This document shows positions 3,734 to 39,862 of a stretch of DNA of 64,000 nt, one piece after another. Each line of letters starts with the position of its first letter. The stretch's first letter is position 1. The notes under the pieces were generated by a model. It was not told the DNA's origin. It searched no databases and saw only the letters and a program-made list of their open reading frames with translations. The stretch spans positions 1 through 64,000 of the forward strand of contig JANWZA010000031.1 in assembly GCA_025054775.1 (NCBI GenBank). The letters run 5' to 3'. Made by a program: the position numbers and the translations under genes. The DNA is from Microscillaceae bacterium. GTDB lineage: Bacteria > Bacteroidota > Bacteroidia > Cytophagales > Microscillaceae.

Positions 3734-6652
3734 ATGTTGAATAATTATCAAAAATTTTATATTGTTATTTTTCTATTTTTTGTAGTTCTGGATTTATTTG
3801 CTCAAACGGGTTTATTTCATACTTTTCATTACAACCCGGCCATAGAAAATTTTGATAGGAGAAATACCGCTGTTATACAAGGTACAGACGGGGTGATGTA
3901 CTTTGCTAACCAACAAGGTGTTCTTATTTATGATGGTATTAACTGGGAGCTAGTAAAAACTCCCGCTACGCCGCAAGTATTAGCAATAGACTACGCTAAT
4001 GATGGACGCATTTATGTAGGGTGTAAGGGCTATTTCGGTTACTTGAAGAGCAGCGAAAAAGGGCAAAAATACTATCAAAATTTGATTGTAAACAAAGAAG
4101 CATATATTAGCAATATAGCCATATTAGATAAAACCATTTACTTGTTGACTAATCGCGCTGTTTGGGTATTTTCTACTAATACTAACAAGGTGGAACGCGT
4201 AATTCCCTCACTTTCAGGAGAGCCCTTGATCGGTATGTTCGTATTTCAAAAGGCACTTTATGTAAGCATTCTTGGGCGTGGGTTACATATTCTAAAAGAA
4301 AATAATTTAGTGGCTGTACCAGAAGCCACCCAAGGCACACGGCAAGGTGTACTCTTAGCTATACCTTATGACGAGCAACTCCTATTAGGTAATGGTGAAA
4401 ATGAACTATTTTTATTCAATGGCTCAAATTTGAAACCTTTTAGGACAGAATTTGATAAGTACCTGAAAGAAAAAATTTTAAGCGGAGCAGCAGCCTCACA
4501 AGGAAATCAAGTAGCAATAGGAACTATATCGGGAGGAGTAGTTTTTTTCCACAAACAAACTCAAAAAGTGGTTAATACGCTCAATGTTTACTCAGGGCTA
4601 CCCGATGACGAAATCCTAGCTCTATGTGCTGATAGACAGGGAAGCTTTTGGATTTGCCATGGCTATGGCATTTCAAGGGTTGATGCTTACCTGCCTATAC
4701 GCAACTTCTCTAATTACTGGGGACTAGAAGGTAACATCACCACAATTCTAAAAACAGAAAAAACGCTTTATGCAGGTACGAACTCTGGCTTGTTTTATCT
4801 TACTCAATTTACAAGTATGCAGGAGGTAGCTGCATCTATTCAAAAGCAATTCAAAATGATGCAACAAAAAGCTACTTCAAAAATTATTACACGTACTATT
4901 CAAACCCAACAAATAGAAAGCGAACCACTACCCGTAGATAATAAAAGCCCATCAAAAGAAAAAACGGAAAAAAAGAAAAGTAACTTCTTTAGAAATATTT
5001 TTGAAAGCAAAAAGAAACGTAAAGAACGCGAAGAGCGCGAAAATATACAAAAACAACAACGTGAAAAAGAAAAAATTACGCAAATAGAAGAGAAAATCAT
5101 TCAAGAAATACAACCCGAAACTACTACTCTTTTAGAAGAGAACCTATCAAAAATAGACAATCCGCTCCTACTAGGTACTATAACGGCAGGCTCAGAAAAA
5201 CCTTTTATCTATAAGCGAGTTGAAGGCATAGAAGCAAGGTGTAAGCAAATTATTGCTTACAAAAAATACCTCTTGGTAGCTACCAGCGTAGGACTTTTCG
5301 CTGTTAATACTGAAACCCAAACAGCCACTAAAATCATTCCTAATGCTTATATCCATTTCATTCGCCAGTCGGCTACGGAAGAGAATGTATTTTACATTGC
5401 TTCTAATCAAATGATTGCCTCTATTATCTTTGAAAACGATACTTGGCAAGTAGTAGAAAAATACACACGGATTAACAGTGAAATATATAGTTTGGTAGAA
5501 TACGACAATATTTTGTGGGCAGGTGCCGATAACCATGTCTTTGCCTTAGCAATTGCCGAAAAAGGTACTTTCTCTGACTATCGCAAATTTACCTTTGAAG
5601 GTGATTACGCAGGCACTGTCACAGTAAGAATTGTGCAACAAGAGTTATTATTTTTTACTCTAGCAGGTGTCTATAAATTTGATACTAATAAAGGAACTTT
5701 TCAGAAGCAAAAAACTAAACTTGCTCAATATTACGGAGAAAGAGCAAAAATTTACACTAACCAACCTGCTCATACTTGGCTTAAAAGTGAACGCCATTGG
5801 TATGATTTGAACCAACTTTCTCAAAAAGATACCTTAAAAACTGCTTTCCTTAATTTGTTTAAGAATATCTCCGATATCTACCTTGATAATGAAGAGAACC
5901 TTTGGGTAGCTACCGAAGGAGCTATCTATTGTGTGGATAGACAAGCACAACTTAATTACCAAAAAACTTTCAATATCTTTGTAAAAAGTGTAAGTAGCCA
6001 ACGAGGAATCTACTTCTCACTGCAAGATTTGACTATCGATAAAGAAGAGATTCAATTAGAATTTAAGTTTCAATTAGCAACTCCTTTCTATTTGAACGAA
6101 AATGATATTGAATATCAGTATCGTGTTGTAGGTATCAATACTGCCTCCCAATGGTCAGATTGGAGTAAGCAATCTGAAATTAAACTATCCTTTTTATCTG
6201 CAGGTTACTACACTTTGGAAGTCCGTGCTAGGAATGTACTTGGGCAAGTAAGTGAGATACAAAAGATAGACTTCCGTATTAAGCCCCCTTTTTGGGAAAC
6301 ATGGTGGTTCTATGTCTTACAAATTCTCTTCCTGCTAGGTTTATTATTGGGAAGTATCCTAATTAGGCAATCTGACAAGAATGCGCGTTTAGCAAATATC
6401 CTTACTATGCTTACAGTAATTACTGTTTTTGAGTTTATTATCGTATTCTTAGAACCTTATACCGATAGGTTTACAGGAGGCGTACCTGTATTCAAAGTTA
6501 TTATGAATATTATCCTAGCCGCTTCGCTCAATCCTTTAGAAAAATTTTTACACCACTATATTTCTACAAGAAAAATACAACTAAAAATATATAAAATTAA
6601 ACACGTTGAACGTGAACAACCTTCTACTATAGATATTGGAGATACGAAATAA
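3734..6652 (+). CDS. Two-component-regulator propeller (Reg_prop/Y_Y_Y) membrane protein without a kinase
   Basis: A 972-residue protein with a signal/anchor segment at residues ~8-24. A beta-propeller of Reg_prop-like repeats follows (for example GLPDDEILALCADRQGSFWI and NLWVATEGAIYCVD). It is interrupted at ~381-475 by a Lys/Glu-rich insertion (KEKTEKKKSNFFRNIFESKK). A Y_Y_Y-like Ig domain (~780-855) precedes a hydrophobic helix (WWFYVLQILFLLGLLLGSIL) and two more membrane helices. The usual layout would continue into a histidine kinase or AraC domain. Here the protein ends in a short basic tail, so any signal must be passed by a partner or by the membrane segments. Ligand is unknown. Confidence 0.85.
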   Translation: MLNNYQKFYIVIFLFFVVLDLFAQTGLFHTFHYNPAIENFDRRNTAVIQGTDGVMYFANQQGVLIYDGINWELVKTPATPQVLAIDYANDGRIYVGCKGYFGYLKSSEKGQKYYQNLIVNKEAYISNIAILDKTIYLLTNRAVWVFSTNTNKVERVIPSLSGEPLIGMFVFQKALYVSILGRGLHILKENNLVAVPEATQGTRQGVLLAIPYDEQLLLGNGENELFLFNGSNLKPFRTEFDKYLKEKILSGAAASQGNQVAIGTISGGVVFFHKQTQKVVNTLNVYSGLPDDEILALCADRQGSFWICHGYGISRVDAYLPIRNFSNYWGLEGNITTILKTEKTLYAGTNSGLFYLTQFTSMQEVAASIQKQFKMMQQKATSKIITRTIQTQQIESEPLPVDNKSPSKEKTEKKKSNFFRNIFESKKKRKEREERENIQKQQREKEKITQIEEKIIQEIQPETTTLLEENLSKIDNPLLLGTITAGSEKPFIYKRVEGIEARCKQIIAYKKYLLVATSVGLFAVNTETQTATKIIPNAYIHFIRQSATEENVFYIASNQMIASIIFENDTWQVVEKYTRINSEIYSLVEYDNILWAGADNHVFALAIAEKGTFSDYRKFTFEGDYAGTVTVRIVQQELLFFTLAGVYKFDTNKGTFQKQKTKLAQYYGERAKIYTNQPAHTWLKSERHWYDLNQLSQKDTLKTAFLNLFKNISDIYLDNEENLWVATEGAIYCVDRQAQLNYQKTFNIFVKSVSSQRGIYFSLQDLTIDKEEIQLEFKFQLATPFYLNENDIEYQYRVVGINTASQWSDWSKQSEIKLSFLSAGYYTLEVRARNVLGQVSEIQKIDFRIKPPFWETWWFYVLQILFLLGLLLGSILIRQSDKNARLANILTMLTVITVFEFIIVFLEPYTDRFTGGVPVFKVIMNIILAASLNPLEKFLHHYISTRKIQLKIYKIKHVEREQPSTIDIGDTK

Positions 6653-37440: not shown

Positions 37441-38073
37441 TTACACGAAGCGAAATAAGCCTTTCCATTGAGAGAGTTGCTCTAGAAAATGTTGTATCAC
37501 AGCAGGATAGGTAAAAATTGCAAAGGCAATCCCTACCAATGCTCCGTAAAAATGAGCCTCATGGCTAACACTATCATGTGAATTTTGAGCTGCATAATAA
37601 GAAAAAAGTAAGTACAATAATCCAAACAAAAAACTTGGCATACATAATACACCATACACACAAAGTTGGCTCAAGGGCATAAATAGAATACTTACAAAAA
37701 TAACTGAGGCAATCGCTCCCGAAGCACCCAAAGAGGAGTAATTAGTATGTTTGTACTTGAAATAATTAGGCAAATCGGACAGAACCATACCTACTATATA
37801 TAGTACAATCAACAGAATAGCCCCAAGCTCTATACCAAAAATACGCGCATAGATTATCTCTACATTTTTTCCTAAAAGATATAAACTTATCATATTAAAG
37901 ATGAGATGTACCCAATCTGCATGGATAAGCCCTGAGGTAAAGAAGCGATAATACTCTTTCTTCCGCCAAATTTGGTTAGGTATCATAAGCCACTTTTGAT
38001 AAATGTGAGGATTATTCCAAGCGTATAAAGTGGCTAATACGCTTATAGCGATAATACTTTCAATAATATACAT
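37441..38073 (-). CDS. Rhomboid family intramembrane serine protease
   Basis: A 210-residue membrane protease with about six hydrophobic helices. The rhomboid signatures are all present: H51-x4-H56-x3-N60 (HADWVHLIFN), the catalytic serine in GASGA (Ser118), and the catalytic histidine His174 in a late helix (SHEAHFYGALVG). It cuts transmembrane segments of other proteins; the substrate is unknown. It is monocistronic, with its own TAnnTTTG box at 38111-38118. Confidence 0.93.
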   Translation of the reverse strand: MYIIESIIAISVLATLYAWNNPHIYQKWLMIPNQIWRKKEYYRFFTSGLIHADWVHLIFNMISLYLLGKNVEIIYARIFGIELGAILLIVLYIVGMVLSDLPNYFKYKHTNYSSLGASGAIASVIFVSILFMPLSQLCVYGVLCMPSFLFGLLYLLFSYYAAQNSHDSVSHEAHFYGALVGIAFAIFTYPAVIQHFLEQLSQWKGLFRFV

Positions 38074-38110
38074 TGGAGCATAGACTGAAATAACTTGAAA
38101 CTTTACGATG

Positions 38111-38118
38111 CAAATATA
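38111..38118 (-). promoter_or_regulatory. TAnnTTTG promoter box before the rhomboid gene
   Basis: TATATTTG on the minus strand lies 37 nt from the start codon at 38073. Confidence 0.4.
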
Positions 38119-38163
38119 AAAGAACAGATTGAGAAATATCTAAAATTAAATTTTAGTGTATAT

Positions 38164-38366
38164 GGTATTGTTAATTTTGTATAGATTTTTTTTGCAAAAA
38201 AAGATTACTAAAACCCTGAAACTATGGAACGATGTCCAAAATACAAATTAACAAAATTTTGTAAAGATGGTATAGCTAAAGGCAAACAACGATCTAAAAG
38301 TTTATTCATTTAAACTTTTAATGTTTAAGTGGAATAGTGATTTATCTATACTATTTTAACAATGCC
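38164..38366 (+). mobile_element. Internally deleted IS1-family element (203-bp MITE-like relic)
   Basis: The left end starts GGTATTGTTAATTTTGTATA. The right end is its imperfect reverse complement: 19 of 23 bases match between 38163-38185 and 38345-38367. The ends begin GG and finish CC, as in IS1-family repeats. The element is flanked by GTGTATAT (38156-38163) and ATGTATAT (38367-38374), a 7-of-8 direct repeat of the size IS1 elements generate. About 60 bp in from the left end is a 29-codon ORF resembling the InsA zinc-ribbon N-terminus. Transposase coding capacity is otherwise gone. Confidence 0.75.
38224..38313 (+). pseudogene. Remnant of an IS1-type transposase N-terminus (InsA zinc ribbon)
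   Basis: The ORF reads MERCPKYKLTKFCKDG, then IAKGKQRSKSLFI and a stop. Intact InsA-like proteins start with a CPxC zinc ribbon followed by a conserved GxxKGKQRYKC block. Here CPK, KDG and KGKQR survive, while the second and later cysteines are altered and the frame ends. Position and orientation fit the left end of the element. Confidence 0.7.
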
Positions 38367-38415
38367 ATGTATATGCTAATTTCACCTCTTACAAGGTCTT
38401 AATTAAGAAAAAATG

Positions 38416-38423
38416 TATCTTTG
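38416..38423 (+). promoter_or_regulatory. TAnnTTTG promoter box before ffh
   Basis: TATCTTTG lies 59 nt before the ffh ATG and 49 bp beyond the IS1 relic. The insertion therefore left the core promoter intact. Confidence 0.45.
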
Positions 38424-38482
38424 TATCTTAAAAAGCTTGTAATTAACCATTTCACTTTTTCACTTTTTACCTAAATTGGATT

Positions 38483-39862
38483 ATGTTTGAGTCGCTTACT
38501 GCTCGATTAGATGAAGCCCTTAAAACCCTCAAAGGTACGGGACGAATTACCGATGTGAATGTAGCCTCCACTGTGAAAGAAATTCGCAAAGCTCTGGTAG
38601 ATGCTGACGTGAACTACAAGATTGCTAAAACAATTACCGATAATATTAAAGAAAAAGCTATAGGTCGGAAGATTACTATTGCTGTAAAGCCCAGCGAAAT
38701 GTTGGTAAAAATTGTGCATGAAGAATTAACCGAACTGATGGGAGGGCAAGCCCAAGACATAAACTTGAAAGGAGAGCCTGCAGTTATCCTTATAGCTGGG
38801 TTACAAGGTTCGGGTAAAACCACTTTCTCGGCTAAATTAGCAAATTATATCAAGAGACAAGGGCGTAGCGTGCTACTAGTAGCTTGCGATGTATATCGCC
38901 CTGCAGCTATCCAGCAATTACAATCCATAGGAGAAAAGGTAGGTGTAGAAGTATATGCTGAATTAGATAATAAGAACCCCGTGCAAATTGCCCAAAATAG
39001 TATTGAATATGCTAAAAAACATCACTACCGAGTAGTAATTGTAGATACGGCAGGGCGTTTGGCAATTGATGAGGAGATGATGCAAGAAATAGAAAACATA
39101 AAGAAAGCCATCAATCCTTCAGAAACGCTGTTCGTGGTAGATGCTATGACAGGGCAGGACGCCGTAAATACGGCTAAAACTTTTCATGACAGATTAAACT
39201 TTGATGGTGTAGTGCTTACTAAATTAGATGGTGATACGCGTGGAGGCGCGGCACTCTCTATCCGAACCGTTGTTAATAAACCTATTAAATTTGTAGGGAT
39301 GGGAGAAAAGGTAGATGCTTTAAATAGCATTGATCGCTTTTACCCTGACCGTATGGCAAATCGTATTTTAGGCATGGGCGATATTGTGAGTTTAGTAGAA
39401 AAAGCCCAAAAAATTGCTGAAGAAGAGGAGAGTAAGCGTATTGCGGCGCAAATTCGCAAAAATCAATTTAATTTAGAGGACTTTTACTCACAAATCCAGC
39501 AAATCAAACGCATGGGTAACCTCAAAGATATGATTTCTATGATACCAGGTATTGGGAAAATGATAAAGGATATAGAAATAGATGACAATGCTTTCGTACC
39601 TATAGAAGCCCTTATACAATCCATGACTCCCAAAGAACGGCAAAACCCTGAGCTTTTGGCTAATCCAAGTAGAAAAAAACGCATTGTTCAGGGAAGTGGA
39701 AGGAGCATGGCAGAGCTGAATAGTTTAATTTCACAATTTTCTGAAATCCGAAAGATAATGAAAAAAATGAACGCGACTCAAATGCCTTCTATCAGTAAAG
39801 CCAGCCATATAAAAAACAATAAAAGCAATAAGAACAAGAATAAAAAAGGAAAAAAGCGGTAA
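38483..39862 (+). CDS. ffh: Signal recognition particle protein Ffh
   Basis: A 459-residue GTPase that binds signal sequences and 4.5S RNA and targets nascent membrane proteins to FtsY. The N domain spans ~1-90. The G domain has P-loop GLQGSGKT (106-113), DTAGRL, TKLDGDTRGGAALS and FVGMGEK. The methionine-rich M domain includes MGNLKDMISMIPGIGKM and the RNA-binding SGRSMAE region. A basic Lys/Asn tail ends the protein. Normal length; single gene. Confidence 0.98.
   Translation: MFESLTARLDEALKTLKGTGRITDVNVASTVKEIRKALVDADVNYKIAKTITDNIKEKAIGRKITIAVKPSEMLVKIVHEELTELMGGQAQDINLKGEPAVILIAGLQGSGKTTFSAKLANYIKRQGRSVLLVACDVYRPAAIQQLQSIGEKVGVEVYAELDNKNPVQIAQNSIEYAKKHHYRVVIVDTAGRLAIDEEMMQEIENIKKAINPSETLFVVDAMTGQDAVNTAKTFHDRLNFDGVVLTKLDGDTRGGAALSIRTVVNKPIKFVGMGEKVDALNSIDRFYPDRMANRILGMGDIVSLVEKAQKIAEEEESKRIAAQIRKNQFNLEDFYSQIQQIKRMGNLKDMISMIPGIGKMIKDIEIDDNAFVPIEALIQSMTPKERQNPELLANPSRKKRIVQGSGRSMAELNSLISQFSEIRKIMKKMNATQMPSISKASHIKNNKSNKNKNKKGKKR

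Follow-up and report, generated by a model that had tools for sequence, protein, structure and literature searches.

A 203-bp element upstream of ffh in a Microscillaceae bacterium is very probably a decayed deletion derivative of a resident IS1-family insertion sequence

The short element that lies between a rhomboid-family gene and ffh in this Microscillaceae genome is almost certainly a degraded copy, with an internal deletion, of a ~750-bp insertion sequence (IS) of the IS1 family. It was examined within a window of 64 kb, that is, the whole stretch of DNA analysed (64,000 nucleotides), and its features are listed in Table 1. As read directly in the window, the element covers 38164-38366 and has GG...CC termini. 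The 203-bp length, the inverted match of the 23-bp ends at 19 positions, the termini and the flanking repeat matching at 7 of 8 positions, all named in the original prediction, were recovered on re-reading. Members of the IS1 family have terminal inverted repeats (TIRs) of ~20-25 bp that start with GG, a total length of ~0.7-0.8 kb, a target duplication of 8-9 bp, and a transposase composed of a zinc ribbon, an HTH and a DDE domain. The ends of the element agree with the TIRs of this family, and the length does not: given 203 bp against 717-750 bp for its full-length kin, the element is a derivative of an IS1-family member and not a complete member.

Table 1. Features of the 203-bp element and of the genes beside it (positions in the window).
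Feature	Position	Strand	Remarks
Rhomboid-family gene	37441-38073	-	PF01694
Left target-site duplication copy	38156-38163		GTGTATAT; 7/8 match to 38367-38374
Left terminal inverted repeat (IRL)	38164-38186	+	GGTATTGTTAATTTTGTATAGAT; 19/23 complementary to right end; end shared by full-length copies
Left arm kept from parent IS (IRL, leader, OrfA start)	38164-38298	+	85-94% identity to long and contig-edge copies
29-codon OrfA remnant (InsA-type zinc ribbon start)	38224-38313	+	CPKY replaces CPKC; last codons span the deletion
Internal deletion junction	38298-38299		Left match stops and right match starts here; ~546 bp lost relative to the 749-bp copy L010
Right arm kept from parent IS	38299-38366	+	76-94% identity to other copies along its whole length (68 bp)
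Right terminal inverted repeat (IRR)	38344-38366	-	23 bp; minus strand reads GGCATTGTTAAAATAGTATAGAT
Right target-site duplication copy	38367-38374		ATGTATAT; 7/8 match to 38156-38163
ffh	38483-39862	+	PF00448, PF02978, PF02881

Both arms of the element match other copies of the same IS. The best match of the left arm was locus L003 (94.0% over 134 bp) and those of the right arm were L021 and L005 (94.1% over 68 bp), the arms being ~6% diverged from their nearest copies. The same ends occur across the genome, which comprises 65 contigs (3.01 Mb). Copies were located by a fuzzy end search in the fetched loci and by an end-pattern search of the whole genome. Fourteen two-ended copies were found, the 203-bp element included, with lengths of 114, 139, 146, 203, 455, 457 and 585 bp and, in seven cases, 717-750 bp; a further nine copies were cut by contig ends and five were one-ended internal fragments. 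The end-pattern search yielded 68 sites at ≤3 mismatches, against 26 in a reversed control; the 27 sites with three mismatches were dropped as likely chance hits, and the 41 sites at ≤2 mismatches were used. Across the whole genome, these added no two-ended copy beyond the 14. The end-pattern search had been added because the similarity search scored 40 of 146 candidates, for which reason the number of copies should be read as a minimum. The 12-bp flanks vary between copies. The copies elsewhere in the genome and the full-length IS1-like elements with the same ends that the original prediction had proposed to look for are thus present (13 other two-ended copies, seven of 717-750 bp), which excludes that no other element in the genome has these ends. 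Nine contigs (C4, C5, C6, C7, C22, C29, C40, C57 and C58) end inside an IS copy, and the assembly may therefore hide further, more similar copies. The contig of the window itself (C10) carries, outside the window, a two-ended deletion form of 114 bp (L024, 1356-1469) and, ~2.7 kb from it, a one-ended fragment of the same IS (L024, ~4155-4200).

The long copies encode an IS1-family transposase, mostly in broken form. Among the ten two-ended copies of at least 455 bp, a count that excludes copies at contig ends, only L010 (contig C50, 43990-44738, 749 bp) has both transposase frames open, with an OrfA of 147 codons and an OrfB of 127 codons; the frames are broken in the other nine. OrfA of L010 scored 106.4 bits on the NCBIfam IS1-family model NF033558 (cut-off, 100; profile positions 1-116), and the OrfB part scored 87.2 bits on the same model (positions 117-199), which is under the cut-off by itself. 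OrfB also matched PF03400 (DDE_Tnp_IS1) with 44.9 bits, as did the overlapping stretch L034 with 50.8 bits (cut-off, 24.1); the whole genome contains six PF03400 matches, of which four exceed the cut-off. On the Pfam InsA zinc-ribbon model, OrfA of L010 remained below the cut-off (18.6 versus 26.1 bits). The proposal of a deleted IS1-type element is therefore borne out by full-length copies that have the same ends and whose ORFs match IS1 transposase models; the IS1-type transposase belongs to these kin only, the 203-bp element holding just its first codons. In the zinc-ribbon region (L009, L011, L015 and L016), several dead copies have a common 7-bp deletion and others lack 3 bp at the second cysteine pair, a pattern that would fit either multiplication of broken copies in trans or sequence exchange between them through gene conversion. 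In the order to which the window belongs, OrfA relatives (E ≤ 1e-20) were found in 77 of the 291 genomes searched, its own genome included. A contig scan, from which own-genome records may be left out, gave eight transposase relatives in other phyla. Paired ends are present in three of the four remote loci L050-L053 and not in L052.

The two frames of the transposase meet at a run of eight A residues (A8), located just after the Asp of IDEMHTYI.[ST]KK in the own copies L006, L009 and L010; from the DDE layout, we take this Asp to be the first catalytic residue. Of the eight other-phyla loci, four (L050-L053) were inspected, and these acidobacterial, desulfobacterial and two planctomycete assemblies have the A8 run at the same point. 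In all seven loci, the remainder of the DDE domain lies in the -1 frame after the run, and the split of NF033558 at model position 116/117 agrees with the frame junction. The run starts at position 1850 in L010, 1711 in L050, 1986 in L051, 3289 in both L052 and L053, and 1786 (minus strand) in L089; it has nine A in the own copy L011. The A8 run and the -1 frame layout are kept in relatives from three other phyla. A frameshift scan of seven loci gave a match in five (L089, L090, L091, L094 and L096) and none in L092 and L093; a -1 shift after the A run fits four of the five, L094 being the one that does not fit. Based on the conservation of the A8 run, we infer a -1 shift in the own copies, and OrfA and OrfB are probably joined by a conserved programmed -1 frameshift, or by transcriptional slippage, inside the catalytic domain. 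The available portions of PMC3196728 and PMC4066793 describe IS1-family elements that shift frame at sites of this type, so that the shift at the A8 run would be of a known kind.

One element of this type, ISCaa4 of Amoebophilus asiaticus, likewise belongs to the IS1 family, and its two ORFs overlap and are joined at a slippery site rich in A, as far as the consulted part of PMC3196728 describes it. There the site is AAAAAAG, whereas the own copies have A8 followed by C, and the copy in the window differs from ISCaa4 in being a 203-bp deletion derivative. An A6G run occurs at the same place in L090, the one locus examined of genome G182 (same order as the window; 1.9 Mb, one contig), which carries at least 13 copies, their OrfA being 53-55% identical. 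The ISAba3-like IS1-family elements in the available text of PMC6382973 resemble the present element in their 24-bp TIRs starting with GG, and the composite transposon bounded by two of them has an 8-bp target duplication; their ends differ in sequence past the first bases, and the host is of the Moraxellaceae.

Duplication of the target was compared across copies. In addition to the 7/8 repeat at the 203-bp element, perfect 8/8 duplications flank the 146-bp copy L019 (AAAGAATT), the acidobacterial copy L050 (GCTGTTTC) and the copy L089 in the relative G016, where AATAGGAT stands on both sides. Among the 14 two-ended own copies, a repeat of at least 7/8 is present in two (the 203-bp element and L019), one more has 7/9, and no convincing duplication was seen at the other 11; the view that good duplications are the rule among the copies was accordingly abandoned. 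The remote copies L051 and L053 have no duplication, leaving L050 as the only one of three remote relatives with mapped ends to have it. An 8-bp duplication fits this group of elements and agrees with the 8-9 bp of the IS1 family. Its scarcity in the own genome is not unusual in view of A. asiaticus, in which, according to the part of PMC3196728 consulted, direct repeats are absent at 83% of full-length IS copies, all families together.

The original prediction of a zinc-ribbon ORF in the element holds in part. The 29-aa ORF does correspond to the start of OrfA; its second ribbon cysteine is replaced by tyrosine where other family copies have CPKC, so that even the half of the zinc ribbon that the stub retains is broken, and the second cysteine pair falls in the deleted part. 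By itself, the stub gave no match to Pfam InsA or to the NCBIfam IS1 model, and the IS1-family membership of the 203-bp element therefore rests on its full-length kin. The element encodes no working transposase.

Without the element and one 8-mer, the rhomboid-ffh spacer would measure 198 bp. Boxes of the form TAnnTTTG, the Bacteroidota -7 promoter motif, occur at 38111-38118 (minus strand), 45 bp to the left of the element, and at 38416-38423 (plus strand), 49 bp to its right; inspection by eye revealed no clear -33 box for either. The element does spare both of these divergent boxes, as had been stated. The claim that it sits exactly between two promoters is only approximately right and is weak, since the motif is frequent (140 occurrences in the window versus a mean of 99.6 in shuffles). 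The orthologous site was sought via the rhomboid gene in 15 genomes of the family, the own one included, and tblastn was run on 14 loci (L058-L071) extending ~1.5 kb to either side, or less where a contig ends; these comprise the own locus and the top loci from 13 of the 14 relatives, with G013 left out for its weak match. Within ~1.5 kb on each side, ffh adjoins the rhomboid gene in none of the 13 relatives' loci and does so only in the own genome. When 36 other genomes, none of the same genus, were searched for the element itself, five gave matches, of which the best covers 67 bp at its right end (84%) in G016, the others being weak.

Two readings without a transposon have to be considered. 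Since the G+C content is ~25% both in the element and in the remaining spacer, an inverted repeat could have arisen by chance in AT-rich intergenic DNA. Against this stands a scan of all 23-bp arm pairs with a span of 60-1000 across the 64-kb window: eight pairs (four sites) reached at least 19/23, with GG...CC only at 38164-38366, and 52 pairs reached at least 18/23, with an 8- or 9-bp direct repeat of ≤1 mismatch again only there. A repeat of at least 7/8 at the spacing of the element has a frequency of 0.0009 at random window positions and was seen once among the 182 mismatched pairings of left and right flanks within the element family that served as a chance control. The left arm, moreover, matches the long and contig-edge copies at 85-94% identity, and the probability of a chance origin is vanishingly small. 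A structured regulatory or non-coding RNA of the spacer would explain why the plus-strand fold is better than that of shuffled sequences (z, -4.38; equalled by 0 of 200 shuffles). The outer stem of that fold is, however, the pairing of the two inverted ends, expected of any TIR-bounded element; the same ends are dispersed at unrelated loci, the full-length copies encode a transposase, and 37900-38600 has no Rfam match at E ≤ 1. Because the stem consists of paired ends and these ends are dispersed, the RNA reading was set aside as highly improbable.

The deleted IS copy could alternatively be a MITE, that is, a short derivative that the resident IS1-type transposase still mobilises in trans. 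In the available text of PMC6382973, Type I bacterial MITEs are internal deletion products of a parent element, and the 203-bp element resembles them in being short and AT-rich, in having TIRs, in the loss of the transposase and in the presence of the parent IS, with the same TIRs, in the genome. Its ends are intact and L010 keeps both frames open, so that, judging from sequence, movement in trans may be possible. Other deletion forms point the same way. L018 and L019 (139 and 146 bp) have the left breakpoint in common, both carry an additional base where OrfA begins, and both have a similar loss close to the right end; L005 and L007 (457 and 455 bp) have one junction in common. As the 12-bp flanks differ within each pair, neither pair represents copies of one larger segment, and with two copies in each of two deletion classes, deleted forms may have spread. 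L018 and L019 make up a candidate miniature element family of two. On the other hand, L018 and L019 are only 82% identical, and a small deletion in the long copy L017 has its edge at their left breakpoint, where breaks may thus recur; shared junctions could also spread by gene conversion. The 203-bp element itself is a single copy: unlike in a MITE family, which has several copies of the same short form, its junction (38298/38299) was found in none of the other loci compared, contig ends aside. With one mismatch in its 8-bp repeat and arms ~6% off the nearest copies, we regard it as unlikely to be a MITE. A broader proposal, in which miniature elements arise repeatedly here from one IS1-family parent (114, 139/146, 203, 455/457 and 585 bp), at least two of them having multiplied after deletion, only one of the ten two-ended copies of at least 455 bp keeping both transposase frames, and the ffh copy being one such movable form, is possible and remains tentative.

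For the decayed IS1-family copy, the following course is proposed. The parent transposase, made from OrfA and OrfB probably by a -1 frameshift, would have placed a copy in the ~198-bp spacer that separates the rhomboid gene from ffh, duplicating 8 bp, for which the ends and the 7/8 repeat speak. An internal deletion, either before or after insertion, took away ~546 bp and left both ends and the 29-codon stub. Later point mutations would have damaged the stub and changed a single base in the target repeat. A resident transposase could in principle still act on the ends, which appear complete enough.

For annotation, the stub ORF upstream of ffh should not be called a gene. The element represents real but ordinary IS decay, and the genome has longer relatives of it at other sites. 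Its IS1-derived deletion forms of different lengths, together with a parent copy that looks intact, could be used to ask when deleted IS copies start spreading.
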